A DNA stretch of 63,192 nucleotides. Origin: a virus. A model generated the notes under the pieces. The model was not told the DNA's origin. It made no database searches and saw only the letters and a list, made by a program, of their open reading frames with translations. Shown in pieces: positions 11,439 to 62,291 of the stretch. The translations under genes were made by a program, and so were the position numbers. Where the stretch lies: positions 1-63,192 of the IMG/VR virus record IMGVR_UViG_3300031566_000027; one strand, written 5' to 3'. The first letter of the stretch is position 1. Each line of letters starts with the position of its first letter.

Positions 11439-11458
11439 AGATATTAGAGGTTAAAGGT

Positions 11459-13541: not shown

Positions 13542-13700
13542 ATGAGGGCATTTGTTTTTGAATTAACAGAGGGTGAACTCCGGAAAGAGGTTGATAAAAA
13601 GCTGATCGATGAATTGAGGGAAAACCTCTTTCCGGATGAGATCTATTGGTTAGAGCACGTTGCCAAAGAGAACCTAAACAAAGGAGGGATAAGGCCATGA
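13542..13700 (+). CDS. Small acidic protein
   Basis: 52 residues, GGGGGAG site, ending in an ATGA overlap with the next gene. Helical with alternating charge (LTEGELRKEVDKKLIDELRE). Unknown; probably coupled to the pilin-like fusion downstream. Confidence 0.55.
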   Translation: MRAFVFELTEGELRKEVDKKLIDELRENLFPDEIYWLEHVAKENLNKGGIRP

Positions 13701-21362: not shown

Positions 21363-21760
21363 CGGTTTTCTTGTGGGCGGCCATGTACGAATCAATGTAT
21401 CCGGATCTTTGGTTAATGTCCGGATCGATTATGGGCGGCACAAAAATACCGTTTAAGATCCTGGCAAAGTGGAAAAAATCAGGCATGAAAAAGGGCAAAC
21501 CGGACATTCAGCTGCCGGTGGCCAGGGGCGGATATATCGGCCTGTGGATTGAATTAAAAACGGCCGGTGGTAAAGATCCATCCTCCGAACAGGTTGAATA
21601 TTTAAAGCGATTGGCAAGGGCAGGGCACTATTGCGTGTGTTGCAAGGGGTCCGATGCGGCGATCCAAGTGATTAAGCGGTACGTTAATGGTAAGATAATC
21701 AAGGGAGGTTCGCAAAATGTTTTATTTGATGAAAGACAAAACGGGGTTTACGCTTATTGA
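21320..21760 (+). CDS. VRR-NUC-type nuclease
   Basis: 146 residues from the ATG at 21320 (AGGAG site). Contains GKPDIQLPVARGGYIGLWIE followed by LKTAGGKDPSSEQVEYLKRL, the GxPD...(E/D)xK arrangement of the PD-(D/E)XK VRR-NUC family, which cleaves branched or flap DNA. Phage members are usually standalone and small like this one. The 3' end overlaps the pilin-like gene by 44 bases. Transcribed with recombination genes or from the sigma-28-type promoter. Confidence 0.87.
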   Translation: MDYSKKRSEYAEQVAVFLWAAMYESMYPDLWLMSGSIMGGTKIPFKILAKWKKSGMKKGKPDIQLPVARGGYIGLWIELKTAGGKDPSSEQVEYLKRLARAGHYCVCCKGSDAAIQVIKRYVNGKIIKGGSQNVLFDERQNGVYAY

Positions 21761-22091
21761 GATCATGGCCGTTCTGGTCATTTTGGGCGTAATTTTTCCG
21801 GTAACGATCAAAAAGTTTAATAATTTTGCAGATAATGCTATCATTATGCAGTTTGATCGAATTGAACGCGAGCTCAACGTGCGGGAAATGGTTACATTTG
21901 CCGATCACCGGATTTCCGGGCGATACACCGATGATGCCGCCCTGTATGCCGCGATCGATTACAACCTGGGCGATGCCAAGTGGATAGCGGGCCCGGCGCC
22001 GGATGGCGGCCAAGTCGGGATCAAGGGGATAACCCGGGCGCTTAAAAGGGTTCAGAGCTCGCCAAAAAAACCGGCCGCGTGGGTAAAGTGA
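21717..22091 (+). CDS. Type IV pilin-like (pseudopilin) protein
   Basis: 124 residues with a GGGAGG site. The leader MFYLMKDKTG ends in Gly, followed by FTLIEIMAVLVILGV: prepilin peptidase cleavage site, Glu at +5 and hydrophobic helix as in PilE/GspG/GspH. The C-terminal part is a short globular domain of about 95 residues, smaller than most major pilins. No pilus assembly gene accompanies it, so it would depend on host prepilin peptidase and machinery. It may alter or block host type IV pili or type II secretion. Confidence 0.82.
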   Translation: MFYLMKDKTGFTLIEIMAVLVILGVIFPVTIKKFNNFADNAIIMQFDRIERELNVREMVTFADHRISGRYTDDAALYAAIDYNLGDAKWIAGPAPDGGQVGIKGITRALKRVQSSPKKPAAWVK

Positions 22092-22300
22092 TGGATGAGG
22101 ACAGGCCCGTTTTTGGGTATCTCGAAAAACAAAAGGTGTTCGTTGCCGATCCTCACGATCTGGCCAGGGCCATCCGGTATGGTGATAAGTTTCACTCTGC
22201 CGATGGCCTGGCCTATTATTTCTGGAAAGGTATCACCTATGTAACGCCGGCGGATCAACCGCCTATGCTGCGTTATATCAAGGGCGGGCGGCCCGCTTAA
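22091..22300 (+). CDS. Small hypothetical protein
   Basis: 69 residues from the ATG at 22091 in a TGATG overlap with the pilin-like gene. Mixed alpha/beta (YLEKQKVFVADPHDLARAIR, YYFWKGITYVTPADQP). Its TAA shares bases with the TAA of the giant gene on the opposite strand. Translational coupling suggests a partner of the pilin-like protein. Confidence 0.6.
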   Translation: MDEDRPVFGYLEKQKVFVADPHDLARAIRYGDKFHSADGLAYYFWKGITYVTPADQPPMLRYIKGGRPA

Positions 22301-25300: not shown

Positions 25301-28300
25301 GCCGGAAAATGCTGCCGTTGTGCTTTTAACTCCTCATATTTTTTGCCGGCAACATCTTTAAAGGCCGTTTTGCCTACGCCTTTGGCCGCGGCCATTCGCT
25401 TTTTTTGCTCGGGCGTTAGGATATGGCCATACTCGATTTTTTTACCCTTGCGCGGGGGTTCTTTCTTTTGCCTAAAGGCGGGGGCGGCGCCGGCGATCGG
25501 CTCGACCGCTTTGCCCGCTTTTGCAAACTGCCTGGCATTTGCGATCAGTGCCCGGATCTCTGCATCCGATAGTTTCAACTTGATACCCGCGGCCCGGATC
25601 CACTCCCGGATAGCCCGGACCATGCGATCAAACCACCTGGATTCAATCTCTTGCTGTGCCTGGCCGGCAAACCATTCCTCGGCGGCCTGGGCGCGGCCCT
25701 CGGTGGTTTTCATATCGAGGCCCAGGGTTGCCCCGATCGCGTCAACATCTCTCTTTTTGGCGATATAAAGATCCCTTAATACCGGGTAAATCTTATTACC
25801 CAGGATGCCCCGGATCCCATGATGGCCAAACGCCTCATGCAAAAGGGTTGTGGTGGTTTCCGCGTTTGATCCTAAATTTTCAGCGATCAGATAAATCGTA
25901 TTATTATAATAGGCGCCGGCGATCAGGCCCGCGTCTTTATAATTGGCTTTAAGATAGTCCTTAACGTCCTGGGGGAGGCCCTCTTGCGTGCGGTAGATCT
26001 TAACGTACGGGGCCCCTTTAGCCCATTTCACCCGGACGGCATCAACCATTGTTTTAACCTGCTCAACCGTTTGCGGGGTCGCCGGTGCAAATTTTTTGGC
26101 CCTGGGCGCCGGAGCTCCGGCCTCGCCCTTGATGGCTGCCGGCGGTTCGGGTTCATATCGGACCTCGGCCACAATATCATTGACTCCGCTATCATCCCGG
26201 TGCACGATATGATTTTCGCCCGCCACATCTTTTCCTAAATGCCAGGTGCCCGGGCCGGCAAGGCGTTCCACCATCAACCATAGTTCGGGGGCGATGCTAT
26301 AAAAATCATTCTCTGATTTAATCCAAAACTTAGTTGCCGCTTGCGGTGCATACCGGGTGCCCTTAAAAATTGCGTGTGCCTCCTCCGCGCTATTGGCGTT
26401 CTCAACCTCATAAAGCACCTGGTTCGTTTTGGCCTCTATGATATCCCAATAACCGCCGCCCTTATCCACGGCCTCAACCTCGGCCGCGGGCTCGATCGTG
26501 TACTCCTGCGGAGGCTCGATCTCTGGCCCGGGGTCCGCCTCGAATAGCGAGGCCGGCGCCGGCGAATTGTAAGCATACCCGGGATCGAATTTTTTACGTT
26601 GCTCCCCGAAAAAGGTTTTTAAATCGAAACTACCCTCCCGGACCATAAAGGCCGGCGGATCCGTGGAAAATTGCTCTTGCTTCGGCCAGATATACCCGCC
26701 TTGCGTTTTCCACTTATCTTTTTCGGCAAAATCTTCCAGTATCGGCACCGGGGCTTTATAGTCGCGGACCGGCCTGGCGCCCTCAACCGCCATACCGGGT
26801 GTGGCCGACATTTGTGCCTCAACCTCGGCCAAATCCTTTTCGGCCTGTGCGTACTCATTCTCTTTGGGCCATTTCGATATAGCAACCTCCTCGAGGGCCG
26901 GCTTTTTGCCGTTTAATTCGGCTATTTCATCCTGGGCCTCGCCTATAATTTTATCAAGGTTTGCTATAAAATTGGTAACGGATCTGGATACGTTCCCGGT
27001 GATTTCCGGCGGGGCCGCCTTTTTTTCGCCCAGGGCATCGGACCAATCGGCAAGAGCGTATGAATTTGAAGTAACGCCGTTTTTGAGAGTCAACCATCGC
27101 CGGGCCCTATCGCCGGCGGCACTTTCGATTAAGGCCTGGGCCTTAATCGGTTTGAATTTGTATTCCTTGACCGCTTTGGTTTTGGTTTTGCCATCTTTAT
27201 CTTTTTGCTCGTTGCCATCTTTATCGAGAACCGGGCGCTCGACCTCAACCTCCTCATGGGCGCCAAAAACGAGCGTTGGTTCGCTTTTTTCCTTATCCCA
27301 CCACTTGCCATCCTTAACCGGCCGGGTTTTTTCGACCGCCGCGGCCAGGGAGTCTGCGATCTTCTTGCCGTCTTTTTTAAGCACCAGGATATCATCGGAT
27401 CCGGTAAAGCGGACGGCGGTTATCGGTTCCATGATCGCCTTACTCTTTTCCTGGGTTGCGATTCGAGATTCGAGGGTTTCGATCCGGGTCGGCATCGCCA
27501 CAAGTTGATTTTTGGCATCCCGGACCGTATTAAGAAACGAACTCCGCTCGAGGCCCAATGTCCGGACCAAATCCATTAGCTCCGACTGTTTGCGCAATAG
27601 GGGATTGCCCGAGGCGTCCGCCTCCATTTCTTTCGCGCTCATCACTTCCTCGGAGATATCCTCGATAACATCGATATTGATATCTCCGGACAGTGCGGAA
27701 TGGAGCACCTTGCCCTTTTGGAAGATTTTCCCCCACCGGTGCGCGTCCACGCTCTTTTCGGTAATATAGTTAAAGATGCGCACGCCATCTTTATCGGTGT
27801 AGATATTGCCCGAGCGGATCCCGCGGCCGTTCCTTTGCTCCCAGGCCGAATAGTTCCACCAAACATCTAAATGGTGGATATCTGAAACGCGCTTTTGAAC
27901 ATTAACCCCGGTTCCGGCCTTTGTGGTGGATCCGATCAGCACCCGGACCTCGCCGGCGTTTACTTTTTTAAATAGGCGCCTGAGATTAATCGCCTTTTTC
28001 TCTTTATTTGAATGATCGGCATCGTGGATAAATGCAATTTGATTCTTAGGGATCCCTAATTTTATCAATTCATCTTTGAGGCCGTCATAGGTATTGAACC
28101 CAAGGCCCGAGTTTTCAAATGCGAACAGATCGTCTTCATACTCTTGCCTTTTTTCATCGCTCATGTTTTCGATCTGTTCATCTGTTTTGTACTTAAATGC
28201 TTTTAAATACCGGCCGGGCACGCCCATATCGGCAAACACCAGTTGAACGCCCTTGTCTTTTTTTTCTGCTTTCCATCGCTCGAAAATTTTACGCGAGGCT

Positions 28301-31300
28301 ACATAGATCTTAGAGTCCTTTTGCATTTTTGTGTTTGCATAAGGCCCCGGGGCCGGAATCCAAGTATCAGTTTTTGGATCCCACTTTTTACTATTTAACA
28401 ATCGCTGATCGATGGCAACCATGCTCATGTTTGAAATGATGCGCAACATATTATCCGGGCGGCCCTCGTATTCGGCATTTTTAGGATCCTGCTCTATCGC
28501 CTCGACTCGATCCCTCACCACGTTTTCAAAATAATCGATAACGTATTTATTGGGTTGGATGGTCATTCCGATTGGTTTCCCGCCATAAACTACTGGCCGG
28601 GCGATATCGGTATCCTCGGCTCGCACGCTATCGATGTTCTGAAATGCGGTTGCAAGCAAACGGCCGGCGTTCACGATACGCCTATTGGTTGTTACCGTTT
28701 TAAATTTCTGACCGGCGCCATCCCATTCAAGTTGGGCCCCGATATCTCCATAATTGGCAATCCATCTATCAAACCGCCATTGGCCCTGCCGTTTTGCCTC
28801 GTCTGGTTGCAGCGCCCTTTGCAGGTTGTAAAATTCAGCGATCGAGTTGGTGAGGGGGGTTCCGGAGGCCAATACGATGCCGTCCTTTTTCGCCTGAGTA
28901 GCATTTAACCATTGTGCTTTCCGGAAAAAGGCCTGGGCGGTCTTGCTGCCGGCGGGGTTTAGCCCGGTAATTCGATTAAGGCTTGTCGAAAACGGGATAT
29001 TTTTATAGGCGTGTGCTTCATCGACTATCATCAAATCCACGCCGATATCGTCAAAGTAAATTTCCTGGGCCTCTTTTGCCTCTGCAAAAGTTCCGGGAGC
29101 CTTTAACTTGGCCTCTAAGGCCAGGATCCGACCTTGAATATCTTGCTCTATGATCCGGGATCCGGCCGCCTTTGCCTCCTCGAGGACTTCCCGCAACTCC
29201 ATCAATTCCTCATCGATAAAGGTTTTTTCAGCCTCGGGGGATAAGGCGATCCGGTTTAGATCCTGCTGCCGCATGATGGCGATATCAAAATCGTTTAGCG
29301 CCATCTTTTGAAGTTGTTTCCGAGCTCGCTCTTTTACGGTGGATACCTGGATCGGCATTACGTTTGCCAGGGGGTAAAGCCTTTTAATTTCCTCAACAGC
29401 CTGGCCCATCGTGGAGTCGTTCAACGTAACGTAAAGAACCTTTTTCTTGCCCTTTAACCGTTTCGCCTCCATGCCGATCATGGCCATTGTCAAGGTTTTG
29501 CCGGCGCCGACCTCATGCGCAAGATAGAGATTGCCATTTCTTAAATACTGCCATACGGCGTTTACCTGATGATCGTAAAAAACCATCTTATCATCAACGC
29601 CCAACTCTTTAGCCTCGGCGGCCGTCAATACCTCCATGCTCTTGCCGGGAAATGTTAAATGGGCGCCATCATAGTGCGACCGAGTTGAGGTATTAACGAT
29701 ATCGTTAAAGCGGACCTGGGCCTCCTCGGCGCGGGCAGGATCGGCAAACAGCCACCGGTTAAATTCCGCCTGGATCTCTTGTAGCTTGGCCACGGCGCCG
29801 GCCGTTGCCACTTCATCAACATAGACTTTCTTATCCACTTTATAGGTGACAACCGGCACTTTGCCCGCCAGGGCATCGGCCATCAACTTAAAAAAGCTCG
29901 CCCTGGGAGTGCCCCAAACAGACTTGGCCTCAACGCTAGTCTTGTACTTCTCGATATCGCGTCTAGTTTGGGCCTTGCTGCCGCCATATCTCGGGCCGTT
30001 AAAGGTAAGATTCCAGATCCCGGTGAATGGATTTAATTCTAAAACAGGCCGGAGCTCGTTACCAATTTTCAGCTTTTCTTTTATGAAATCCGCGATATGT
30101 GCGCCCTTTAACCAGGACGCGCCAATTCGCGCCGTTATTCGGTGCGCGGGGATATCATCAGGCAAGGCGGCCTCTAATAGCTTTACGTTCCGCTCATATT
30201 CCGGATTATCAGCGGCCATGGATCTGGCCACTTTCAACTTTCGCCGCACGTTGCCGGCCAGGTATTCATCCATCGTTTCAAGGATCCCGGTTTCCGGGTT
30301 CTCGATAACTTTATCGAGCACGCCTTTTAATACGGTATCCGGATCGGTGCCCCGGAGCTTGGCCATGTAATCAAGGTTTGGATATCCAAATTCATCCAAG
30401 GCCATGCTTAGGGCGTCATGGTCGGTGTTCGCAAAATCGGGCCGCTTTTCGGTTCCTACAATCTTTTTGGTGAATAGGTCCGCGAGTTTTGTGACTTTTT
30501 CGGTATCGGGATCATAGGTTTCGAGGGTTGTAACCCACGCGGCATCAGTGAGGGATACATAAATTTTAAGGTTTTTAGGATCATTCAGAGGGCCAAACTT
30601 TTTTACAAATTGATTGTAGGCCTTTTTTAATTCTTTCTGTTCGGCCTTGATCTCTGCCTCGGGCAGGTTTTGCTTTTGCGCTCTTAAAGTCGCCCGCACC
30701 TGGTCCAGGATCTTAATGTATTGCCGGCCAAGTTTATTAGCCCTCATTTCAGCGGGCGTGGTGTTCGGCCACACTTCCTCCTGGCCGTCCACCTTTTCTG
30801 AAACCTGGTCCTTATCGTTTAGATAAAGCCCGCCCTCTTTTACCGTTCCGGGTGCAGATATTATATCATCGAGGGATAGATCCGCTTTTACGACCTCGGT
30901 TTCAACTATGCCCACCGGGAACGCCGCGGCCTTTTCGGCCAGGGTCCGGGCGATATTATCATCGATTTTAACAACGCGCAGTTTATCAGCGCCCCATCGA
31001 TCCTGTACTTTTTCAAGGCTGCCGGCGATCATATCCGGGTGCTTGATAAAGTAATCGTTGTAAATAATATCGTTGCCCTCATCGACCGCCTGGGCGGTCC
31101 AAATATCGGGCTCAATCCCTTTAAATTCGCTGCCCTCAATGTTTTTACGGAATACCAGGATATCGGTAACAACTCCGGTGGCGCTGTAAATGGCCGATGG
31201 CAGGCGGATGGCGCCAACAAATTCGGCCTTTTGGGAAAATTCCTGTAAATGGCCGCCGCCCTTATCCATCGTGTTCGAGGTGGTTATGGCCATCGCCAAA

Positions 31301-34300
31301 CCGCCCGGGGAGGTAAGATCGAGCATTTTATTAAGGTAATAGTTATGGAGTTTGTGCCCGGCCTTGTTATGTTTCGTATCGGACGGCGAATAGTTAGCAA
31401 ACGGCACATTTGTTATGGTGAGATTGTATCGATTCAGGGGCTTTTTAGAATCCTCAAACCCCTGATGTTCGATAGAGGCTTTTTCGTATAGAGCTCGGGC
31501 GATCCGGGATGAAAGGCCATCCTTTTCAACACCCTGGACGGAAACGCTTTCCGCTAATTCATCTGGCATCGTACCGGTGAAAACGCCGTTTGCCCCAAAG
31601 GCCGGGTCTAAAACCTGGCCGCCGGTGAATCCTAACCGTTGTGCCAGTTTCCACATAAACCGCGCAACCGGCACCGGTGTATAATAAGACGATACGGAGG
31701 ATTTTTCTGCATCCGAAAGCTCCTCATCGGTCATTTCTGCCCTAACCAGTTCGGCGCGGACCGCCCAGGCATCTTTAGGACTCCACGCAAACAGTTCTGA
31801 CATACCGCCCCAACCAGTATAGCCGGCCAGGATATCTTTTTCTTTTTGGGTTGCGGATCGTTGCTCCGCCTCGACTTGATTTAATACTTTGAGTGCTGCA
31901 AGATTGGCATTAAAGCGGTCATTTACATTTGATGCAGAATTAAGCGATTCATCAGTTATTCGGTAGTTTCCGGGGGTAGCAGGATATGCTCCTGTATCAC
32001 TATCTCCCTCGCCGCCATCGGTTTCACCCCTCTCCTTACCAGGTCGGCCATCGCCTCCTCCGCTTTCCCCACGCTCTCCCTGATCTCCTGGTTCAACCTC
32101 CCCCGCCTCTCCAACCCCTTGACCAGGGCGGGTAGGTATTTCGTCCAGTGCGTCCTCGCCAGTTTCTCCCAACTCAGATTCATCTTGGGCCCCCTCTTGA
32201 ATGTAAGTGGCGGTATCACCGTCATAAATGAAATTTGTGAGCTTATAGCCAATTATATCATCGGGGTGCAACATTGTCAAGTATCCGACCGCCCCGGCTC
32301 CCCCTTGCCCCTCCTCTTTATAGGATTTATCATAGGCAGAATATCCATCCGGTTGCATCATCGGCCCCAGGCCGGTAGCGTCATATCGATACCAGTAATA
32401 GCCGTCCGGGGATTGCTCTGAGGACCAAATTGCTTTATACCGCTCCTCGATCTGATCCAATAAGGCTTGTTTTTCCTGTTCTAACCTCTCCGCCTGTATG
32501 GTTTCAAAGTCGACATAATCATCTTTCATGCTCGGGTTGCCGTCCGCATCCCACTGAACGCCATCGAGGAAATGCGAAATCTTTTCGGCAAATTCCTCGC
32601 GTTCCTGGCCGGCAGGATAAACAAGATGAGATCCTACAACGCCGGCGCCGCCGATCCGGCCGGCCTCCACGAAATCATTTACAAGATAATTGTTTGTGCC
32701 GGGCAGGGTATCATAAACCCAGGCCTCGAACGCTCGCGCCCACATTTCCTCGCGGCGGGCGGTATATACGGGGTCCAGGGCCAACGCCGTTTTATAATAA
32801 TCGGTCCGTTTTTTAACCGCGTCCTTGTATCGCCTGGATACTTCCTCTTTTATAAAATCAAGCCTGGTTTGCCCTTTTTTAAGCACCAGGCGTTTCATAA
32901 ATCCACTTTCCGGATCCATGATCTCATCGGCCAAACGCGGCCCGGCCTCCCAATCGTACCGGTCCATAAAGGCATCAATCAGACTTTCGAGCTTGGTTTC
33001 AACGTCTGAGGGCGCCTGCGCGTGGAAACCGTGACTCCATTCATGCGCAAGGGTGCCATCGCCATTATCCCGGGTAAAGTTGATGGTCCGTAGATCCGGG
33101 AAATAAGCGGCTGCCGCGCCCTTGGCTTTGTGCCCCAGGTTAGCAAATTGGATGGCCAGGCCATTTGCCAGGCCCATCGCTTTATCGGTTCCCGTTTGGA
33201 TCACCGCGGCCAGATCCTTAAAGGCATCAAAGGCGGCGTTTACTACCCGGTGGCGTTCTGCCTGATCAATCCATCCGGCAGTACCAAAACCCACGCCGCT
33301 AAAGCCAAACGGATCCTTTAACTCCTCGGTTTTTGTCAGTGGTTGACCTTTGCGGTAATCCGGCAAGCCGGTTCTGATAACCTCTTTATTCTTTTCCCGG
33401 TTGTGGATATCGATCTCGGAAAGCAGGATATCGTTTTCCTGGGCGAGATACTTTTGCCATCGCTCGGTTAAAAACTCGTAAAGGGTCTTTTGGTAGCGAT
33501 TGACGATAAATTCCTGGTTCCACAATTCGGCGTTAAGCAGATTCTTATCAATGTCGTAAAAATCCGGGTAAACACCATCACCCATGACGCCCGGAGGAAT
33601 AAATAGCCGCTGTAAATCTCCAACTGCATCCATTATGGTTAGTTTGTTAGAAAAAGTGTTGACCACCTTTTCCATGTGTTTGCCGTATTGAGTGGCCAGG
33701 TCTTGCAGTTCGCTAATCTCATGGCCGGCATCTAACCAGTTTTGCACTCGGGTTTCCCACTTTTTCTCGCTGCGATAACTGTGGCTCCCGAGTGACGCCT
33801 CGCGCTCAACGTAGTCCTTAAAGGTGGCAAACATCTTTTTTGCCGCGTTTCTGAACCGCGGCAGGCCATAAGAGGCGCCCTCTGGAAAATCAATATTCCA
33901 GATATTAGCAGGGGCCATCTTATCACCGATAATCTTAATCTGAGTTTTGGGCGGTTTGCCCTGGATCCCCCTGGCTAAATCCTCCGGATCGTACACATAG
34001 CCCACGTTTTGAAAATTACCCAGGGCCTTTTTTGCCGCGGCGATGGCCGCCTTAGTTTCTTGAATGAATCGCCTGAGATATGGCTTTATTCCGTTGCCAA
34101 ACCGTTCAACAAAGAAATTGAAAAATTCTTTTAAGGATTTTCCGGCCGACTTCATGTGTTCATAGGCCGATTGGAATTTGGGTTTTGCCTTTGCGTAGGT
34201 ATCTTCATCAAAGGTGACGCCCATTGATAGCTTGGTAGTTCCACCGAAAAGATCATAAAGACCGGATAGGGCATCCTCGGCGCCGGCTAAACCCTCGGCC

Positions 34301-37300
34301 GCCCCCTCTTGTATAATCTCGGATAATGGTTTGGCCGGTTTGGGTTCCTTTGCCTTGCGCGGGGCCCGCTCTTTTGGCGGAGCTTTCGGGCCCTTGGTCG
34401 GCTTTTCAGCCCCGGTTAAATTATCGATCTCTGTTTTTGCATCGGCTAAAGATTTGGTGTTAATAATCCGGGCGTTATCTTTTGATACTATAAATTCACC
34501 GGAGGTCAATGACGCTGTAATTAAATATCCTTTATATGCGGTTGTATCCCCGGGCTTTAATTCGGCTTTCGGCGCCGCCGGTTCTTCCTCGCCGGTTTCA
34601 TCGAGCATTTTATCAATTTCTTCATCGGTAAGGTTTTCGATCTCGGCCTCTATATCGGGCGGCGGGGGCGGGGGGCCTGGCATTACAAACTCGCCGCCAT
34701 CTAAACCCCGGAGCTCATCGAGCTCAACTTTAGCGCGTTCCGGCGTTCCGCTAACCGTATGGGCCCAATATTTACCCTTATCCTTGCCCCGCTTAATCGG
34801 CTTAACGTCCGAGATATCAACCCAATCGCCCTTGATTTTTGCCTGGCCGATAGCTGCCGGCTTTGGTTCCTCATCGGCGGGCGGGGCCCCGGCCTCTGCT
34901 ATTCGTTCCTCGTCTGGTGTCGGCCTGTCATATTCCCATACACCATAAGGCCCAAAATCCTGGGCCGTTACAGTGTCTTTTGTTGTTTCAACTTGATCCT
35001 CTCTTTTGGCTATTTCGGCGGCCTCGTCTGCGTCTATATATCGGCCGGTGCTTGTAACAAATCCCCTGTGCACATCTTCATATTTACCCTTATACCCTCG
35101 ATCTTCGGCCTCTACCATGGCCGAGGGGTGGCTAGTTGACTCGATTATGGTGCCATCTGGCAATCGAATTGCCGCCGCCATAATTTTCTCAACCTCTGCC
35201 GGTGCCTCTTTTTTGGCCTTTTTCCTGGCACCCTTTTCGCCCTTTCCGGTGCTTTCCAGGGGCGCTGCGGGTGCTGCCGCCGGTGCTAACGCCGGGTGAT
35301 CCTCGTACTCTTTATAAAATTCGATCTCATTCTCCCGGGCCTCCGGAACCACTGCTAATTCGTGAACTAACTCCCAGGTCAAATCCGCACCCTCAATATC
35401 GTGATTATTGGGGGCGGTATAATACCGGCCATCGTCCAGGGGATAAACCATCTTGCCGGCGAAATCTCCAACTCCATCGGTTACGGCGGTGGTATCGAGT
35501 TCCTTTTCGGGCAACCTTTCATAATCAAGGTGGTCGGATAAGAAATCTCTAATGCTTTTGGCACTTCCCTCCTCGAACGTCCTGCCGTGATATTCGGCCT
35601 CTCCGATATCGGTTTCGGCGTCCACCTGGGCGGCGGCGCCTCCGAGCTCCGCCTCCATATCCGCCGGCATATCGCCCTCCATCGGGCCTCCGATGAGGGT
35701 TTCGTATTTGGTTTGATCGAGCTTGGCCCTGGTGAATTTATCAAGGCGGTCAAATTGTTCGCGGATCTCGGGAACATCATCAACATAAAAGTATTTTTCA
35801 ATCCACTTTTCGAGCATTTCCCGTTTGGTGGCCAGGTCGGCGGTATATTGCAGATCCGGGAATCCGACCATAACGGAAACATCATCAAAGTATTGAGCGA
35901 GGATTTTCTTTAATCCGCGATCGTGCCCCTCTAAGATCGCTCGGTTTTCCTCGGTGGGCGCCCCCGGGGGCATGGTTACAGGTTTCGCTTTTTTGGCCTT
36001 TTTGCGAGCACCCTTTTCGCCCTTGCCGGTGCTTTCGAGAGGCTTGACCGTTTCGCCTGTTTTCTCTTTTTCCCATTCAACCGCCCGGCGGATAAGGTCA
36101 ACCCGGTCCATTTCCGGCCGGATCTGCTCCTCGGATAGGCTTAGAATATCATGGAAAACCTTGAAATCGAGATCATCCTCGATGGCCCATTCGCCCTGTT
36201 GCCTGGCAGCATCCACCGCCTCACCCAGGGCGCCACTTTCAACCCTGGTTATAAACTCATCGACAAACCCATCGGGCATCCCTTGATCTTTGGCGATCGC
36301 CCGGATCTGGTCCTCGGTGAGGGTGCCAGGCATTTCGGTATATTCATCACCCATTCGATCGGTATAATCCGGGGCGATATCCTGATACTGCTCGAGGGGC
36401 AATAAGGCGCCCTCATTGGCTTTTTGGGCCGCCCTGGCGGAATAAATCTCCGGCTTTAAGGTTCGGCCGGCCTGGGATCTCAGGCGATTGGCGTCCGCGA
36501 TAATTTCAACGCTCGGGGATAGGCGCCGCAATTCATCCACCATTTCCTGAAATTGCTTTCTTTTCGGGCTTATGCCTAACAGGTGGACCGTTTTAGGCGG
36601 GTTTTCATGCTTAAAAATATCCTCATATTCGGAGGGTTGGATCGGTTGCTTATTCGAGGGAAACCCGGCGATAGCCCGATCGAGGTTCTCCGGATCCATA
36701 ACCTTTTGCATGGATCCCCAAACACCGCGCAAACCTGGCTCATAATCATCGGCCGGCCGGTGCACTGGCAGTATGATCCGGGTTCCCAGGGCGGCGATCT
36801 CGTTAATCTCCTTGCGGTATTTCTCGGCCATCGTGTACGACTTAACAGGATCCCCAATAACATCGGGCGCCACCACCACCAGGTTTTTAGCACCCTCGCC
36901 GGCCGCTTTTGCGATCCGCAAGTAATTTTTGAGGACCGCCGGCCAATTAACCTCGCTACCGTTCATAAAGGCGCCAAACGCCCCGGAATCGATAAAAACC
37001 TGGCCGCCATCCTTTAAATACTGGATCAACTCTTTTTCGCCGTTTTTCGAGAGCTCCGCGATCTCAACGCCGATCGGAACGCCGGCCGCAATATGACCTT
37101 TCATATCTGAGATCCGGCTCGCGCCGCTATAATAATTTGTTACCTCTTTCGGTATCGGGAGGCCACTTTCAACCGTCCGCACCGGGGCGATCCTTGGGCC
37201 GCCCTCGGGCTCAACCTTTTTCTTAGGTGGCAACGTGGATGGCATCGTCCGGACCGGTGCACGCCTGCCGCCGCCCTCGGGTTCCACGGCGGGTTTTTTA

Positions 37301-40300
37301 AAGCTATCGCGCAAGGCCTCGAGTTCTTTGAGCGGTGGCCATACGGCCATCATTTCAGCGGTCATGCCCTCGCCGGCGAGCTCCGCTTTCATATCATCGA
37401 TAGCCTTTTGTGCCTCTTGATATGTTTCGGGTTCGACCGCCTCGACAACCTTAACCGGGGGGGCCGCCGCTTTTGCCTTTTTTCTCGCACCCTTTTCGCC
37501 TTTTCCTGTGCTTTCGGTCGGCTTAACGGTTTCAACCCTGCTTGGTTTGACCGCTTTTTTAAGTTTTGTTTTCTGCCCCAGGGTAGCGATATCCGCCTGG
37601 ATGAGGCCTAATTTTTCCTTTGGTTTCATCTTCGGATCTTTAATCAGATCCAAAACACTGGCCCTTTGCTCCGGGGTTAGGCTTTTGATTAAAGCATCTA
37701 ATTGCTTTTGCGGTCCGCCTGGCGCCGGGCCCTCTTTTGCATAGGCCATTATAATGGTGTCAAGAAATTCCTGCGCCCTGGGGATCGTCTTATGTGCGCG
37801 ATCGGATATGGTAAAGGTGGCGCCTTTGGCCGGTCCACTGGTAACTGTCATTTGCAGACCGATAGGCCGCTCATCCTGATAGATAACATTATCAAAACGA
37901 ACATTCGCGCCCGCCTGCTTTCCCATTTTTTTGGCCAGATCATCAAATACTTTCCGTTTTGTGGTCGGAGTGATCCGGGTTTTCGCCGGCGGAATTGATA
38001 TTTCCTCGATAACTCCGCCGGGCCTGGGCGCCCGCTTGCCTTTCCAGATCTCCCGGACCTGGGCTATCTGCTCTTTTTTCGGCTTTGGGGGCCGTTTCCA
38101 GGGGGGTTCTGTTCGAGAGGGTGCTTTCCTGGGGCCGCCGGCTGCCGGCGGGGTTACTCCCCAAATCCGGCCTACCTGGGCCGCCTTGCCCTCATCCATG
38201 CGGCCTTTGGCAGTGGTCGGCATGGCCGCCCTGGGCTTTTTGGGAAGTGGGGGCGGTGCTGTGATTTTAGACTCAACCGACTTGACGCCTAATGGCTCAA
38301 AAGACCACTGAATCAATTCTTTATCGGTTTTATCCTTTGAAAATTCCGCGTTATGGTCGATGATCGGGCCGCCATCCCTCGAGATCATGGAGCTCGATCC
38401 GTCCGGATGCCTCACCACGGATACAACAAACTGGCCGGCGTCCTGGGTATCGAGGTCATAATCATTCGTATCTGTAATGTCTTTAATCCCGGCGGCCACT
38501 TCCTCATCGGTGAGCTCGGTAGTTTCGGGGGCCGGTTCGGCCTTTTTTTTGGCCGGCTTTTTAACCTCCGGGCCGGCAACTGGTTCCGGTTCCGCCCCCG
38601 CCGCCGCCTCGAGCTCCTCCTCGGTAAATTCTGCCGCGGCCTCCTCGGCATCGAGGGAATCAGAACCCAGGTTCCGCCGCAACTCTTGCTCTACCTTTTT
38701 ATCGGCTGCCGGCGGTTTCTCCGGGCGGCCGGTCAATATTTCCTCGGCCGTCTGGTCCGGAGCATCTTTAAGCATATCCTCGGCGGTTTCTGGTTTTGGC
38801 GGGGTTTTCATATCCTCGCCGCCCTGGCCGCTTAAAGCCACCATGCCGCCGCCCATAAACGCGCCGGCAACAAGACCGGAGGCCGCGGCCTCTGCCACGC
38901 CCTCGCCTATATCTTTATCCGGATCAACCAGGGCCTTGGTGGCCAAGTTGGTTAATACGGTTTCCATCGCACTTTGGGGCGTTTCCTCGATCAAACCCTC
39001 GCTTACAACACCCCATAGGATTTTCCGCCATAATCGATCGCCCTCTAACCCGGCCAACAATTTACCCATGAAACCGCCGGAGGGGGCGCCCAGGGCGCCG
39101 GTGGTAAGGCCACTGGTAACGCCGACCATCACGCCGCCGGATAGGGCCAAAATCTCTTTTGTAACTCGGTCGCGGTCCTCCGGTGGGATATCCGGCGACA
39201 TACTTTCATAAATCTTTTTGTACGCGGGCGATTTTTTAAAGGCCTCTGCTTTTTGGCCCTTGATCTGCTCGTAAACCCCCTGCATATTCTGAGCGGCGGC
39301 CGTCATGCCCTCGCCGGCCGCACCGCCATAGACGCCGGCCGCAAACTGAACGCCATATTTTTTAGTCATCCACTGAAAAAGAGGCAGGCCTATTACTTCG
39401 GGCCCATATTTAAGGGCGGTTTTGGTTAGCATCTGAGTAAACTTGGCGGATCCGCCCATGCCGACCACGGTGGATGGAATGGATTCAACCACCATGCCTA
39501 ATATTTTTGCCGGGCTTTTTGCTCCCTCCCCCACGGTGTAACCAAAAAAACCGTCCTTATCCTCTTTCAAGAGGTTTTTGGCCATTTCCTTTTTCATGGC
39601 CGGGGTTATTCTGCGATCATAAAAATCACTGGCCTCGCTCGAATAGTCCTCTACTAAGCTGCCAAAGGTGGCCGCGGCCCATTTTTCACCTCGCTTTAAT
39701 TGATTTACATCGCCCCGCACCGCGCCGATGATCTTTTCAGCCTGGCCGGCATACCAAACCGGATCCACCAGGTTCATAACCATGCCGGCCGCCTTTCCGA
39801 AATCGGCGGATCCGCGGCCTAATAATTTAAGATAATCCGCATATTCGGTGCCATCGTCCTGATCGATAACGGGCTTTTGTGCGTTCGGAGTAGGGTCAAA
39901 TTCACCCGGGATCGTTTCCTCTAATCCCTCGAGCGGTGGAGGTTCGGACGGGATCGAGGCCTCCGCCTGGCGAGATCGCTTTAACTCGGCTACTTCCGGG
40001 GCCACTTCCGGGGCCGGGGCCTCTTGCCCCTGCCTGGCCACCTGCAAATCCTCGACCATCGGCCGCCGTTGGGCCTGGGGGTCGGTCGGTTGCACCGGCT
40101 TAGAAAGATCCTCGGCCTCGCGTTGTTTTTGGCGTTCGGCAAATTCCTTGCCAGGGCTACTGCCGGCCTGCAAAACATCACCGATCCGCGCCAATACGCC
40201 TTGTTTCTTTTTCTTTACCGGAGGGCCTACCTCGAATTTGGATTCCTCATCCTCATCGGTGGTCTTTTTCTGTCCTACCAGGGGGCCTGCATAGAATCCC

Positions 40301-40302
40301 AT
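22297..40302 (-). CDS. Giant polyvalent protein, 6001 residues
   Basis: Probably packaged and injected with the DNA, in the style of DarB and other polyvalent phage proteins. Approximate order: charged N-terminus; glycine-rich membrane-active region (220-510); TGT/DpdA-like domain (1050-1275, DSGAF near 1103, HLLGISP near 1236); zincin 1 (HEWSH near 2420); N6-adenine-methyltransferase-like domain (GYTGWGGM near 2825, DPAFGANG near 2896, TNVPF near 2961); SNF2-type helicase (GAGKT near 3597, DEAH near 3757, RNGRGIRSG near 4155); zincin 2 (HEAFGHH near 4820); and a virion-protein-like C-terminus (PFWSWIEIN near 5642). Linkers carry three copies of ESTGKGEKGARKKAK. Last gene of the late operon. 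Confidence 0.92.
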   Translation of the reverse strand: MGFYAGPLVGQKKTTDEDEESKFEVGPPVKKKKQGVLARIGDVLQAGSSPGKEFAERQKQREAEDLSKPVQPTDPQAQRRPMVEDLQVARQGQEAPAPEVAPEVAELKRSRQAEASIPSEPPPLEGLEETIPGEFDPTPNAQKPVIDQDDGTEYADYLKLLGRGSADFGKAAGMVMNLVDPVWYAGQAEKIIGAVRGDVNQLKRGEKWAAATFGSLVEDYSSEASDFYDRRITPAMKKEMAKNLLKEDKDGFFGYTVGEGAKSPAKILGMVVESIPSTVVGMGGSAKFTQMLTKTALKYGPEVIGLPLFQWMTKKYGVQFAAGVYGGAAGEGMTAAAQNMQGVYEQIKGQKAEAFKKSPAYKKIYESMSPDIPPEDRDRVTKEILALSGGVMVGVTSGLTTGALGAPSGGFMGKLLAGLEGDRLWRKILWGVVSEGLIEETPQSAMETVLTNLATKALVDPDKDIGEGVAEAAASGLVAGAFMGGGMVALSGQGGEDMKTPPKPETAEDMLKDAPDQTAEEILTGRPEKPPAADKKVEQELRRNLGSDSLDAEEAAAEFTEEELEAAAGAEPEPVAGPEVKKPAKKKAEPAPETTELTDEEVAAGIKDITDTNDYDLDTQDAGQFVVSVVRHPDGSSSMISRDGGPIIDHNAEFSKDKTDKELIQWSFEPLGVKSVESKITAPPPLPKKPRAAMPTTAKGRMDEGKAAQVGRIWGVTPPAAGGPRKAPSRTEPPWKRPPKPKKEQIAQVREIWKGKRAPRPGGVIEEISIPPAKTRITPTTKRKVFDDLAKKMGKQAGANVRFDNVIYQDERPIGLQMTVTSGPAKGATFTISDRAHKTIPRAQEFLDTIIMAYAKEGPAPGGPQKQLDALIKSLTPEQRASVLDLIKDPKMKPKEKLGLIQADIATLGQKTKLKKAVKPSRVETVKPTESTGKGEKGARKKAKAAAPPVKVVEAVEPETYQEAQKAIDDMKAELAGEGMTAEMMAVWPPLKELEALRDSFKKPAVEPEGGGRRAPVRTMPSTLPPKKKVEPEGGPRIAPVRTVESGLPIPKEVTNYYSGASRISDMKGHIAAGVPIGVEIAELSKNGEKELIQYLKDGGQVFIDSGAFGAFMNGSEVNWPAVLKNYLRIAKAAGEGAKNLVVVAPDVIGDPVKSYTMAEKYRKEINEIAALGTRIILPVHRPADDYEPGLRGVWGSMQKVMDPENLDRAIAGFPSNKQPIQPSEYEDIFKHENPPKTVHLLGISPKRKQFQEMVDELRRLSPSVEIIADANRLRSQAGRTLKPEIYSARAAQKANEGALLPLEQYQDIAPDYTDRMGDEYTEMPGTLTEDQIRAIAKDQGMPDGFVDEFITRVESGALGEAVDAARQQGEWAIEDDLDFKVFHDILSLSEEQIRPEMDRVDLIRRAVEWEKEKTGETVKPLESTGKGEKGARKKAKKAKPVTMPPGAPTEENRAILEGHDRGLKKILAQYFDDVSVMVGFPDLQYTADLATKREMLEKWIEKYFYVDDVPEIREQFDRLDKFTRAKLDQTKYETLIGGPMEGDMPADMEAELGGAAAQVDAETDIGEAEYHGRTFEEGSAKSIRDFLSDHLDYERLPEKELDTTAVTDGVGDFAGKMVYPLDDGRYYTAPNNHDIEGADLTWELVHELAVVPEARENEIEFYKEYEDHPALAPAAAPAAPLESTGKGEKGARKKAKKEAPAEVEKIMAAAIRLPDGTIIESTSHPSAMVEAEDRGYKGKYEDVHRGFVTSTGRYIDADEAAEIAKREDQVETTKDTVTAQDFGPYGVWEYDRPTPDEERIAEAGAPPADEEPKPAAIGQAKIKGDWVDISDVKPIKRGKDKGKYWAHTVSGTPERAKVELDELRGLDGGEFVMPGPPPPPPDIEAEIENLTDEEIDKMLDETGEEEPAAPKAELKPGDTTAYKGYLITASLTSGEFIVSKDNARIINTKSLADAKTEIDNLTGAEKPTKGPKAPPKERAPRKAKEPKPAKPLSEIIQEGAAEGLAGAEDALSGLYDLFGGTTKLSMGVTFDEDTYAKAKPKFQSAYEHMKSAGKSLKEFFNFFVERFGNGIKPYLRRFIQETKAAIAAAKKALGNFQNVGYVYDPEDLARGIQGKPPKTQIKIIGDKMAPANIWNIDFPEGASYGLPRFRNAAKKMFATFKDYVEREASLGSHSYRSEKKWETRVQNWLDAGHEISELQDLATQYGKHMEKVVNTFSNKLTIMDAVGDLQRLFIPPGVMGDGVYPDFYDIDKNLLNAELWNQEFIVNRYQKTLYEFLTERWQKYLAQENDILLSEIDIHNREKNKEVIRTGLPDYRKGQPLTKTEELKDPFGFSGVGFGTAGWIDQAERHRVVNAAFDAFKDLAAVIQTGTDKAMGLANGLAIQFANLGHKAKGAAAAYFPDLRTINFTRDNGDGTLAHEWSHGFHAQAPSDVETKLESLIDAFMDRYDWEAGPRLADEIMDPESGFMKRLVLKKGQTRLDFIKEEVSRRYKDAVKKRTDYYKTALALDPVYTARREEMWARAFEAWVYDTLPGTNNYLVNDFVEAGRIGGAGVVGSHLVYPAGQEREEFAEKISHFLDGVQWDADGNPSMKDDYVDFETIQAERLEQEKQALLDQIEERYKAIWSSEQSPDGYYWYRYDATGLGPMMQPDGYSAYDKSYKEEGQGGAGAVGYLTMLHPDDIIGYKLTNFIYDGDTATYIQEGAQDESELGETGEDALDEIPTRPGQGVGEAGEVEPGDQGERGESGGGDGRPGKERGETDGGEGDSDTGAYPATPGNYRITDESLNSASNVNDRFNANLAALKVLNQVEAEQRSATQKEKDILAGYTGWGGMSELFAWSPKDAWAVRAELVRAEMTDEELSDAEKSSVSSYYTPVPVARFMWKLAQRLGFTGGQVLDPAFGANGVFTGTMPDELAESVSVQGVEKDGLSSRIARALYEKASIEHQGFEDSKKPLNRYNLTITNVPFANYSPSDTKHNKAGHKLHNYYLNKMLDLTSPGGLAMAITTSNTMDKGGGHLQEFSQKAEFVGAIRLPSAIYSATGVVTDILVFRKNIEGSEFKGIEPDIWTAQAVDEGNDIIYNDYFIKHPDMIAGSLEKVQDRWGADKLRVVKIDDNIARTLAEKAAAFPVGIVETEVVKADLSLDDIISAPGTVKEGGLYLNDKDQVSEKVDGQEEVWPNTTPAEMRANKLGRQYIKILDQVRATLRAQKQNLPEAEIKAEQKELKKAYNQFVKKFGPLNDPKNLKIYVSLTDAAWVTTLETYDPDTEKVTKLADLFTKKIVGTEKRPDFANTDHDALSMALDEFGYPNLDYMAKLRGTDPDTVLKGVLDKVIENPETGILETMDEYLAGNVRRKLKVARSMAADNPEYERNVKLLEAALPDDIPAHRITARIGASWLKGAHIADFIKEKLKIGNELRPVLELNPFTGIWNLTFNGPRYGGSKAQTRRDIEKYKTSVEAKSVWGTPRASFFKLMADALAGKVPVVTYKVDKKVYVDEVATAGAVAKLQEIQAEFNRWLFADPARAEEAQVRFNDIVNTSTRSHYDGAHLTFPGKSMEVLTAAEAKELGVDDKMVFYDHQVNAVWQYLRNGNLYLAHEVGAGKTLTMAMIGMEAKRLKGKKKVLYVTLNDSTMGQAVEEIKRLYPLANVMPIQVSTVKERARKQLQKMALNDFDIAIMRQQDLNRIALSPEAEKTFIDEELMELREVLEEAKAAGSRIIEQDIQGRILALEAKLKAPGTFAEAKEAQEIYFDDIGVDLMIVDEAHAYKNIPFSTSLNRITGLNPAGSKTAQAFFRKAQWLNATQAKKDGIVLASGTPLTNSIAEFYNLQRALQPDEAKRQGQWRFDRWIANYGDIGAQLEWDGAGQKFKTVTTNRRIVNAGRLLATAFQNIDSVRAEDTDIARPVVYGGKPIGMTIQPNKYVIDYFENVVRDRVEAIEQDPKNAEYEGRPDNMLRIISNMSMVAIDQRLLNSKKWDPKTDTWIPAPGPYANTKMQKDSKIYVASRKIFERWKAEKKDKGVQLVFADMGVPGRYLKAFKYKTDEQIENMSDEKRQEYEDDLFAFENSGLGFNTYDGLKDELIKLGIPKNQIAFIHDADHSNKEKKAINLRRLFKKVNAGEVRVLIGSTTKAGTGVNVQKRVSDIHHLDVWWNYSAWEQRNGRGIRSGNIYTDKDGVRIFNYITEKSVDAHRWGKIFQKGKVLHSALSGDINIDVIEDISEEVMSAKEMEADASGNPLLRKQSELMDLVRTLGLERSSFLNTVRDAKNQLVAMPTRIETLESRIATQEKSKAIMEPITAVRFTGSDDILVLKKDGKKIADSLAAAVEKTRPVKDGKWWDKEKSEPTLVFGAHEEVEVERPVLDKDGNEQKDKDGKTKTKAVKEYKFKPIKAQALIESAAGDRARRWLTLKNGVTSNSYALADWSDALGEKKAAPPEITGNVSRSVTNFIANLDKIIGEAQDEIAELNGKKPALEEVAISKWPKENEYAQAEKDLAEVEAQMSATPGMAVEGARPVRDYKAPVPILEDFAEKDKWKTQGGYIWPKQEQFSTDPPAFMVREGSFDLKTFFGEQRKKFDPGYAYNSPAPASLFEADPGPEIEPPQEYTIEPAAEVEAVDKGGGYWDIIEAKTNQVLYEVENANSAEEAHAIFKGTRYAPQAATKFWIKSENDFYSIAPELWLMVERLAGPGTWHLGKDVAGENHIVHRDDSGVNDIVAEVRYEPEPPAAIKGEAGAPAPRAKKFAPATPQTVEQVKTMVDAVRVKWAKGAPYVKIYRTQEGLPQDVKDYLKANYKDAGLIAGAYYNNTIYLIAENLGSNAETTTTLLHEAFGHHGIRGILGNKIYPVLRDLYIAKKRDVDAIGATLGLDMKTTEGRAQAAEEWFAGQAQQEIESRWFDRMVRAIREWIRAAGIKLKLSDAEIRALIANARQFAKAGKAVEPIAGAAPAFRQKKEPPRKGKKIEYGHILTPEQKKRMAAAKGVGKTAFKDVAGKKYEELKAQRQHFPALNQVEDPKLRAQFADILRIHQEIPEVVKQQTADVMRGFIENLGSDAYDIYATNIILADMVRDIQSGLLNDALLTKGQTLPFGFESVADVETAYSKFQALAAEHTEIRDALAARKKYISKMVDGLVAHKILKKEVKNYDDYYHHQVLQYWGTKDKKKGNVATGSPDVRKHWRPWMVARKGSLLDYNTEYIEAEFVALSQQLAQLETARVLERLRKMADIKPELHQEATEKNLERFYQEAAERLSKTLKTPLTAQDVMNDEELDPLTPYRKKIGMARGALERMASKGELEAIDSGFDDVVQSLAQSFENKKDPENYDPPGEISDGKWFDFLAYLVRTGKPGSNWAATIFKNIHARKNQIRTDLGKNFLTWQQLVPEGYTQWKPEPGKGGFWVNTITDGMLRAVVAGEAELKEENVKQALAKGQELVWVLPTGLAETLDNFRPPPTDKALGQISEAALRAWKQYILINPMRVLKYNLNNMSGDLDIVLAYNPKILKGMKQSLRDLRAFDKGKATGKLKAELDQARKLGVIGSGWSVQEVEDITKQMGLDKFVRGIIMGEKPNLAVRWWEKSKNLTTLRENLLRLASFRHFQKEIAAGKTVYGASKPVEIDAIKDDTERAAKLARELVGDYGNISQSGQYLRKRMMPFWSWIEINSPRYAYMLRNVRYEGREVGSRPLAIASKKAVTKAVGFGIKATMLYTLVQLWNMLLFPDEEKEFGEAGRRQLHLILGRRSDGTIRSVRFQGALSDTLSFFGLEDFPDDIKDLAKGKKTPLDMMKEAGIAFVTRGIHALRPEPKMLFETLTGQTTFPDPFSPRPIRDTTEHILRTFSLDKIYKRLIGRPGRGKNMAEHFMADLQSLVLYNSDPGEQAYYDARKMVIDYKEKIGEESGGGKPTNKGNALYYYKQALKYGDFKAAERYLYDYYYKYGGTTTGLKRSITMAHPLSGVKKMQRHKFRKSLTAKEAEKLERAIKWYREVYQRQSPQVSRAAMKRVRQQRMADRLED

Positions 40303-57067: not shown

Positions 57068-57229
57068 TTATTTCTGGATATCTTGCTTAGAAATATCAAC
57101 TTCTTTTGGTGCATCTATACAAATCCGGACCTTTTTGCCGGATTTTTTAATAACTTTCAGCTTGATAAGGACTTTATCAATTAACAAACTCACTGTTTCC
57201 GAGTCTGTGATATCGGTCATTAATGCCAT
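57068..57229 (-). CDS. CsrA-like RNA-binding regulator
   Basis: 53 residues, starting in a TAATG overlap with the acyltransferase gene. The C-terminal half, KVRICIDAPKEVDISKQDI, closely matches the CsrA core (VRIGIxAPKxVxVxREEI), including the Arg that contacts GGA motifs. The N-terminal half (ETVSLLIDKVLIKLKVIK) fits the first beta strands. CsrA proteins control flagella, biofilm and carbon-storage mRNAs. A homologue in a capsid operon could regulate host or phage translation. In another frame, coding-like sequence continues after the stop to about 56951. Confidence 0.75.
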   Translation of the reverse strand: MALMTDITDSETVSLLIDKVLIKLKVIKKSGKKVRICIDAPKEVDISKQDIQK

Positions 57230-57711
57230 TATCGGTATGCCTGGGCCGCGGGCCCTTTTGCTGTCTGCCCGGCCTCGAGATCCCTGGTAACAACCGCGCC
57301 GGCGGCAACCATCGCCCTTTCGCCTATGGTGACTCCCGGTAAGATGATAGCGCCGGCGCCGATTGACGCGCCCGCACAAATCAAAACGGGATCCTCTTTA
57401 GGCGCTTCATGGCCTGCCCTGGGGTGTTTCATATTGAGGATCCGGGCCCCGGCGCCGATAAAAACATCGCGCTCGATCTCGCAGGCCTGCATAGTAACAT
57501 GGCTCATAACCTGGACGTTTTCCCCCAGGGTTACGCCGTCACCGATAACACAGTGGGCGCCGATAATACACCATGGTCCAATTTTGGCGCCTCCCATTAT
57601 ATACGCGAAATGAGCGACATAAACGGTTTGGTGCACATCGGCGCCCTGGTCGACCACGGAAGATAATTCCCAATTATCCGGATATATAGTTTGAGGCATC
57701 CCTATTCTCAT
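57229..57711 (-). CDS. Left-handed beta-helix (hexapeptide) acyltransferase
   Basis: 160 residues. Hexapeptide repeats run through the protein (IGPWCIIGAHCVIGDGVTLG, then CAGASIGAGAIILPGVTIGE), with a catalytic-type His in VMSH and NMKHP, as in O-acetyltransferases and sugar N-acetyltransferases. It sits between scaffold and CsrA-like genes, sharing overlapping start/stop with both. Likely a moron that alters host surface sugars (receptor masking), though a virion role cannot be excluded. Confidence 0.85.
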   Translation of the reverse strand: MRIGMPQTIYPDNWELSSVVDQGADVHQTVYVAHFAYIMGGAKIGPWCIIGAHCVIGDGVTLGENVQVMSHVTMQACEIERDVFIGAGARILNMKHPRAGHEAPKEDPVLICAGASIGAGAIILPGVTIGERAMVAAGAVVTRDLEAGQTAKGPAAQAYR

Positions 57712-59310: not shown

Positions 59311-59676
59311 TTAAAAGGTGCGCATCCGGCGTTTTTTACGGTTATTGGTTATAACTTTCTCTCGATCCATCGCCCCGGCCATGCCGGACCATCTTTTGAC
59401 TCCGCCCCCTGGGGCCATTGGGTTAGACAAACCGGCGCCCTTGCCCGGTGATAACAAGGGCGCCGGCGTCTGTGCTCCGCCATTATCAGGCGTTTCCGGC
59501 GGGGGTTCCATCCGCGCTGATGGCGATGGCGGAGCTACCGCGGCCGCGGCCGGTCCGGAGTTCTGCCCGGTGGTATCCGGGTCAAGGGGTTCTATTTTTG
59601 TGCTTAAAGCTGCCCGCTTAATGGGGTTCCTATCTTTTTTCTTTGCCCCCAGGCGCCTTATTCCTTGTATTGGCAT
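59311..59676 (-). CDS. Pro/Ala-rich small head-region protein
   Basis: 121 residues. Basic at both ends with a Pro/Ala-rich disordered middle (AAAAVAPPSPSARMEPPPET). It overlaps the portal C-terminus by 47 bases in another frame, with GGAG upstream of its ATG. Function unknown. Confidence 0.6.
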   Translation of the reverse strand: MPIQGIRRLGAKKKDRNPIKRAALSTKIEPLDPDTTGQNSGPAAAAVAPPSPSARMEPPPETPDNGGAQTPAPLLSPGKGAGLSNPMAPGGGVKRWSGMAGAMDREKVITNNRKKRRMRTF

Positions 59677-61897
59677 TAGGATTGATCTCCGATCGCTTGC
59701 TCGCCTCGATGGACGCCAGGGCGCTTGCCCTCTCTATCGTCCTGCCGGCGGCCGCGTCTGTTTTCTTAAATTCCAATTCCTCGTCCTTTAATTCAACATC
59801 TGCCTCGATGGCCATGGTTTCCGCGACAACCTTATCGATCTCAGGCTTTAACTTTTCAATCTTATCAGCGGCCTCGGCCTCGGTTTTAACCGCCTGGGCC
59901 TCTTTGAGGCGGAGCTCTAACATTTGGACGGCCTCGAGTAGATCCTTTTGGCGTTGCTGCTCCTCGGCCTCCATTTGCCGTTGGGCCACTTCCTCGGGAT
60001 CCTCCGGGTTCTTAGATGGATCCTTTTGACCGGATATCTGCCGGATCCTGGCCACAAGAGTTTCCTTTAGAGGCACATCGGACATATCCACCACAATATC
60101 AAGTAGCGCGAGCGCAACCTCCGGAGGCAGTTTTTCCATCATGCTCATTAATTGCTCGAAAGCTGCCTGCCTCATGCTCGCGGTGAAATTCTGGCTATCG
60201 ATAACAAAATCCGCCTGGCTTGCAGTGATATCGTTAAGCATTTCGCCGGTATCCGGATCCTGATGATTAATTTCCTCAAATTCAAACTGGTTCGGGGCCC
60301 CCTGAATCCGGATAACCTTTGCCTCGCTATAAAACTGCTCGATCAGAGATAGCTTGATCTCTCCGATCAGCTGAAAGGCGAGGCGTAAATTATCAAACAT
60401 CGTCATTGTTAAGGTGGTGCCTAATTCCTGCCTGGCCGTGATCGCCCGGCCGGATATGGCGTTAGTTTGCCTGCCCATCATTTCATCGTTGACGCCCCCG
60501 GTCCGCTCAATATATTCGGCATCCTGATTCATCAACATAACGTGCTCTTGTGCCAGATTCGTATCGGATTGAAAAGTGAAGTTTGCCCCGGGCTTGATCC
60601 GGATCAGGCCATCCGGACGGTCAACCTCGGCCTTTAGATCATCCCAATCATCGGTGGCGTTCTCATCTGCTATCACTTGGCGGGTGTTGAGAATATGCAG
60701 GGCCTTTGACCGGCGTTTGTTTAGATCCTCTTGCGGATCTCTCAGCTGCCGGATCATTCCATAAGGCGAGTTATCAACCTTTTTCCTGTGGGCCCAAATC
60801 GGTACAAACGGAAATCGGTTATGATTATAAGGCGTTGGGCCATCATAAAGCACGCCCTTACTGCAAAAGATCATTACCCGGATTCCCATTCTGATGGCAT
60901 CGTAAACACTGGCCAATCCCTCATCGACCAGGGTTTGATGGTCCTGATTGTTCTCATCAAACATCACGCCGCTTAGGGTTCCGATCTCTTTGCCTTTCAT
61001 TACCTTGCCGCGCATCGGTTCCTTGTACCAGGCCTCGATTAGTCTGACTCGGTTCCGCGACTAGGTTGTTACGCCCGTATCACCGGAAAGTTCAAGCGCG
61101 AATCCGCCCTCGCCCTCGACCGGATCCACATCGATCGTCTGGTCCTCCTCTTGCCAGTACAAATCATCCTTTTGCACTGCCAATTTAACTACTTGCAATC
61201 GATCCGGAAACATCACGGCCGCGATATCGAAATCAACCCACTTGGATCTGAAAAGGTATCTGGCATCGGAATAATCTGGCTCGGTATGCAGGGTATCCCA
61301 CCAGATATTCCGCCAATCTTCCCATCGAACGAATACCGGATCCTCATCCGGATCCGACCGGACGCCGGCCTCTAACCATCCGACTCCGGACTTAACCGCA
61401 TCTTCAAAAGCCCTCGAGCGGTGGAATCCCTCCTTATTAACATCGGAAACGTATTTCATTATTTTGGTTTTCGTTTCCGCCAGGGGCCTATCCTCTTTCC
61501 CCCTGGGGAGGACCACATAATCAATACGGGTTCGCTTTTCAGTGCCGACAACCCAATCCACGGTAGGTTTGATCTGATTAAAAACCGTGGCTTTTTGCCC
61601 GCGGGCCTTTAATTCGGATTTATCATCCTCATCCCATTGATCGCCGTCATAGAACTTATGGTCTTTCATCTGCTCGATACGGAAATCGCCATGCAACTGC
61701 CGCTCGCGCTTGTACCATCCGTTTAGGCGTTGATACCGGGTGAGGGTTTTATGATCAGTATCGTATGGGTGGCGTTTATCCCGGTTTTCCTCATCGGTTA
61801 TACCGGCGAGCTCGAGTTCCTCCTCCTGACTGAGGCCTTGCGAATACCCATAATCCGGATCGTTGAATCTATCAGTTGCGGTATTGTTTATATCCAT
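59630..61897 (-). CDS. Portal protein (P22-type), interrupted by an in-frame amber codon
   Basis: 755 codons from the ATG at 61897 (AAAGG site), close to the 725 of P22 gp1. The first 278 codons end at TAG (61063-61061). The same frame continues SRNRVRLIEAWYKEPMRG and runs on to a TAG at 59630. The two halves read as one portal: N-terminal NQIKPTVDWVVGTEKRTRID, then the amber, then VRLIEAWY, then GGVNDEMMGRQTNAISGRAI and a long C-terminal coiled coil. CAG to TAG is one transition. It could be a nonsense mutation, a sequence error, suppression or readthrough. The strict ORFs are 61897-61061 and 61015-59630. Confidence 0.85.
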
Positions 61898-62291
61898 CGT
61901 CAACCTTTTTCGTTATGTCGTGTTCAAAGGTTTCGCCGGCCGCGGTAACTTTTGCCTGGCCGACCGTCTTTCTGGTTGGATCCAATGGTGGCATCTTAAT
62001 GAGATCGTCAAACCTCGTCTGAATAGCGTAGGCAATTTCCGCCAATTTCCTGATATTAGGCTTGCCAAGCTCTAAAACGGTCATAATCTGCTGACCGACT
62101 CGATAAAGGTGCTCCTCAAACGTGGCGTTATGGTCCTCTGACCAGTAATGTAACTGGTCCATCGATATGATATAGGCGTTCACCTGGGTCTTTTGGCCTA
62201 TAATCGGGATCGATGAAAGCTGCCTTTTCCTTTGCAGTTTTATAACCGGTTGCCCTCTGAGATACCCGGTTTCGACATGGAAGTCTGACAT
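61872..62291 (-). CDS. Hypothetical protein before portal
   Basis: 139 residues. Soluble, with a helical centre (FEEHLYRVGQQIMTVLELGK, LAEIAYAIQTRFDDLIK). It overlaps the portal start by 26 bases. Unknown family; may be a head-assembly or portal-associated factor. Confidence 0.62.
   Translation of the reverse strand: MSDFHVETGYLRGQPVIKLQRKRQLSSIPIIGQKTQVNAYIISMDQLHYWSEDHNATFEEHLYRVGQQIMTVLELGKPNIRKLAEIAYAIQTRFDDLIKMPPLDPTRKTVGQAKVTAAGETFEHDITKKVDDGYKQYRN

Follow-up and report, generated by a model that had tools for sequence, protein, structure and literature searches.

The portal protein is essential to a phage, and the ring formed by P22-type portals is built from full-length subunits. At Dcm-type sites, deamination of 5-methylcytosine is expected to give C-to-T changes at the inner C of CCWGG. 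In assemblies of E. coli and Salmonella, C-to-T changes at this inner C are raised 8-fold (PMC9520237). Recoded crass-like phages carry TAG inside several conserved late genes (PMC7886860). Here, we compare with these systems a P22-type portal gene that carries one in-frame amber codon and lies within the window, that is, the whole 63,192-base stretch of viral DNA that was analysed.

Results

Read through its internal stop, the minus-strand portal frame is continuous over 755 codons before its own TAG (Table 1). The internal TAG, which reads CTA on the plus strand, is the sole stop within this otherwise continuous frame and stands in the context GVTT-TAG-SRNRVRLIEAWYKEP. The read-through frame matches the Pfam family PF16510 (P22_portal) at 2.3e-162 and 542 bits, compared with a curated cut-off of 26.1 bits, and covers positions 2-591 of the 594 in the profile; the match to PHROG 156 (portal) agrees with this assignment. 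Since the halves before and after the stop take up consecutive parts of the profile (Table 1), nothing is missing or displaced at the junction. That two ORFs stand side by side by chance was rejected on account of this continuity and of the 13 out of 13 relatives that have no stop here. The original prediction of one amber in a continuous frame, with both halves portal-like, is thus borne out by PF16510, PHROG 156 and the 13 relatives. Judged from its sequence, the gene can be classed as a P22-type portal that matches the profile over its full length, the copy in the window being an interrupted allele whose frame is broken by TAG at codon 279.

Table 1. Position and supporting evidence of the portal gene, its parts and its upstream neighbour (dN/dS: window versus relatives)
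Feature	Position	Strand	Evidence
Portal protein gene (P22-type), one in-frame amber	59630..61897	-	PF16510, PHROG 156, intact relatives
Portal start ATG; normal terminator TAG	61897..61895; 59632..59630	-	sequence
Amber codon TAG; TGG (Trp) in 13 relatives	61061..61063	-	sequence, codon comparison, word counts
5' portal part, 278 codons, Pfam profile 2-198	61064..61897	-	profile match, dN/dS 0.03-0.08
3' portal part, 476 codons, Pfam profile 199-591	59633..61060	-	profile match, dN/dS 0.06-0.11
Small gene upstream of portal, overlapping portal start; position conserved in relatives	61872..62291	-	ORFs, relative comparison

Purifying selection is strong on both portal halves, with dN/dS values (Table 1) in the same range as those between the intact relatives (0.02-0.12). 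The low dN/dS after the stop implies that the 3' part was selected within a full-length protein until very recently. The small gene upstream encodes 139 aa and weakly matches PHROG 10057, a family labelled DNA methyltransferase; in several RefSeq phages, the gene that directly precedes the portal bears this label too. Because the product is only 139 aa long and the match is weak, the label probably represents a spread misannotation.

A scan of viral contigs yielded 13 portal relatives that are 79-90% identical (the nearest 90% at the protein level). An alignment-based search of viral contigs recovered the same 13, and an alignment-based search of the genome collection found no portal relative. 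The exact 26-base site pattern, used for same-species contigs, was absent from the viral and genome collections scanned. In every one of the 13 relatives the frame is stop-free and the site codon is TGG, within the context TT-W-(S/A)RNRVRLIEAWYKEP. Among distant phages, the aligned residue is Phe (Pavtok, SopranoGao), Tyr (Skulduggery, PBC5, BcepMigl, Itty13) or Ala (Microcystis phage Mwe-JY07), and it is His in the solved structure PDB 8jov; the distant residues are mostly aromatic (F, Y), and Gln never occurs in the close or distant portals compared. The presence of TGG in every close relative identifies TGG as the ancestral codon, so it was TGG, and not CAG, that became TAG, by a single G-to-A transition in the coding strand (C-to-T on the plus strand) at Trp279. 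Of the proposed 'CAG to TAG mutation or error', the mutation or error survives and the CAG ancestor does not.

The ACC TGG of the relatives corresponds to CCAGG on the opposite strand, at which the window has CTAGG. The change is therefore a C-to-T at the inner (second) C of CCWGG, i.e. at the Dcm-type hotspot position. Word counts in the window show an excess of CCWGG (390 seen versus 124 expected), a depletion of CTWGG (56 versus 190) and an avoidance of CTAG (9 versus 98). Under synonymous-codon shuffling of the late genes, z values were 16.7 for CCWGG, -8.4 for CTWGG and -7.0 for CTAG (5 versus 38.5 expected); the CCWGG excess is partly non-specific, since CCSGG is also raised (z = 6.4). 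In three relatives, the frequency of CTAG is 0 to 0.03 per kb, and the depletion of CTAG and CTWGG together with the CCWGG excess is common to related contigs. The word pattern fits a Dcm/VSP-type history and suggests Dcm/Vsr-like activity in the host lineage; from the word counts, we infer that the host may methylate CCWGG and hence the phage DNA. As the lineage avoids CTAG, a new CTAG at the site is unlikely to be old, which favours a recent origin or an error.

The 24 late genes comprise 13,058 codons, with a single internal TAG, no internal TAA and no internal TGA, alongside 277 CAG and 267 CAA (544 together) and 204 TGG codons. TAG ends six of these genes and is thus not avoided as a terminator. 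Reassigning TAG, TGA and TAA, each across the whole window, gave no coding-length gain indicative of recoding. The tRNA and RNA-family searches of the window found nothing, and thus no suppressor tRNA; the suggestion of a phage-borne suppressor gained no support from the window.

The terminase gene leaves one contig end and re-enters at the other, and the length of the window fits the 57-65 kb of its relatives; for these reasons, the window holds nearly the whole genome. The contig ends (1-349 and 62844-63192) overlap imperfectly over 349 bp, with 92% identity (97% at the protein level); the outer stretches are identical, and the differences within the terminase gene are mostly synonymous. Such an imperfect overlap is a sign that the sample or assembly includes more than one strain, with either two strains co-assembled or the break of a circularly permuted genome falling at a strain bubble. 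When all ORFs of the syntenic 65-kb relative were compared with the window, no disrupted conserved gene was found apart from the portal, and the other stops flagged in alignments preceded a start codon or fell in a non-coding frame. A decayed prophage was rejected, given that the terminase spans the contig ends, both portal halves are constrained and no other gene is broken.

Elsewhere in the window, a single 6001-codon ORF (22297-40302, minus strand) is partly similar to a 5409-codon ORF (L022/L023) of the relative G004. A hexapeptide-repeat (left-handed beta-helix) transferase-like gene (57229-57711, minus strand) lies between the capsid and scaffold-like genes, with no match at this gene in G004. 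The early region encodes a protein with a PAPS-reductase domain (11429-12250, plus strand) and two ORFs (13646-14395 and 21717-22091, both plus strand) matching PF07963, a short N-terminal methylation (type IV pilin) motif; the match is internal in 13646-14395 and may reflect chance or a mis-set start.

Discussion

The single-base change in the portal gene of the window is isolated and either recent or miscalled, and it does not reflect a new genetic code; its cause is ordinary. Very probably, a single TGG (Trp279) to TAG hit on an otherwise intact portal gene accounts for the locus, as a defective allele or an error. This reading builds on direct observations: the codon differs from that of the relatives, the stop is isolated, the signature of selection is intact, and the change falls in the CCAGG motif. 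We propose that on the plus strand the second C of CCAGG changed to T and so created an amber without coding meaning; deamination may have caused this transition, which appears to be recent, its age being bounded indirectly by the nearest relatives (90% identical in protein). Taken literally, the portal would end at 278 of 755 residues and presumably lose its function, and a genome with such a truncated portal could not package DNA unless intact siblings complemented it. Because the portal is essential, a replicating phage could not fix a defective allele unless it were suppressed or complemented. At least two strains co-occur in the assembly; the pickup of a defective allele from a mixed population is plausible, as is a base-call or amplification error. 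We give roughly even chances to a defective allele of a mixed population having been taken into the assembled consensus, and a considerable probability, somewhat short of even, to a base-call, amplification or assembly error.

Among the readings of wider interest, only suppression by the host remains, with a small residual probability. It is very unlikely that the amber is real and fixed and that a host amber-suppressor tRNA inserts a residue to give a full-length portal. Well-conserved blocks flank the site, which in distant portals accepts W, F, Y, H and A, so that several residues inserted by a suppressor could be tolerated, and recoding crass-like phages are at times without a suppressor tRNA of their own (PMC7886860). 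However, an established suppressor host should permit more in-frame stops, whereas the late genes hold no second one and include six TAG ends, and the amber is absent from every relative. Still less probable is a phage in an amber-suppressor host that is taking the first step of amber recoding at one essential late-gene codon. If true, suppression would mark a very early stage of a code change, against which the evidence speaks.

Programmed low-level readthrough, yielding a short N-terminal protein with its own function, is scarcely credible: nothing but the presence of the stop favours it, the stop is missing from all relatives, and the portal ring of P22-type phages requires full-length subunits. 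Scarcely more can be said for a portal made as two proteins by reinitiation at ATG 61015, the first ATG inside the 3' part on the minus strand. The 461-codon ORF from this position retains most of the second part, but a start here would lose the conserved SRNRVRLIEAWYKEP segment, its ATG is the Met of a KEPM segment conserved in all aligned relatives, and none of the relatives is split. The use of code 15 (TAG = Gln) in late genes, as put forward in the original prediction, can be practically dismissed: such codes occur in other phages, mainly in late genes (PMC7886860), and the lone in-frame TAG is all that speaks for recoding here, but code 15 is contradicted by this one internal TAG in 13,058 codons against 544 CAG and CAA codons, by the six terminal TAGs and by Trp rather than Gln in the homologues, and the window yielded no tRNA.

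The gene resembles P22-type portals (PF16510, PHROG 156; best solved relative PDB 8jov) in its full-length profile match and differs from them in one in-frame stop at the Trp279 position. Its surroundings follow the order terminase, small genes, portal, scaffold-like gene and capsid, which is the same in the 65-kb relative. The podoviruses Erwinia phage Pavtok, Pseudomonas phage Skulduggery, Burkholderia phage BcepMigl and similar phages (about 61-63 kb) resemble the window in genome size, and their portals are 41-46% identical over 76-87% of the protein, but these are intact and have Phe, Tyr or a different residue at that position. An in-frame TAG in the portal gene is one recognition sign of crass-like amber recoding (PMC7886860); in contrast, the TAG of the window is isolated, TAG is a normal terminator, the window has no suppressor tRNA and the ancestral residue is Trp. 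A single in-frame stop in a metagenome hallmark gene should thus not be equated with recoding unless codons are compared with those of relatives. With regard to the Dcm-type CCAGG hotspot, word statistics suggest that the phage DNA may be methylated, and the inner-C change in the window, from CCAGG to CTAGG, is the one that 5-methylcytosine deamination predicts.
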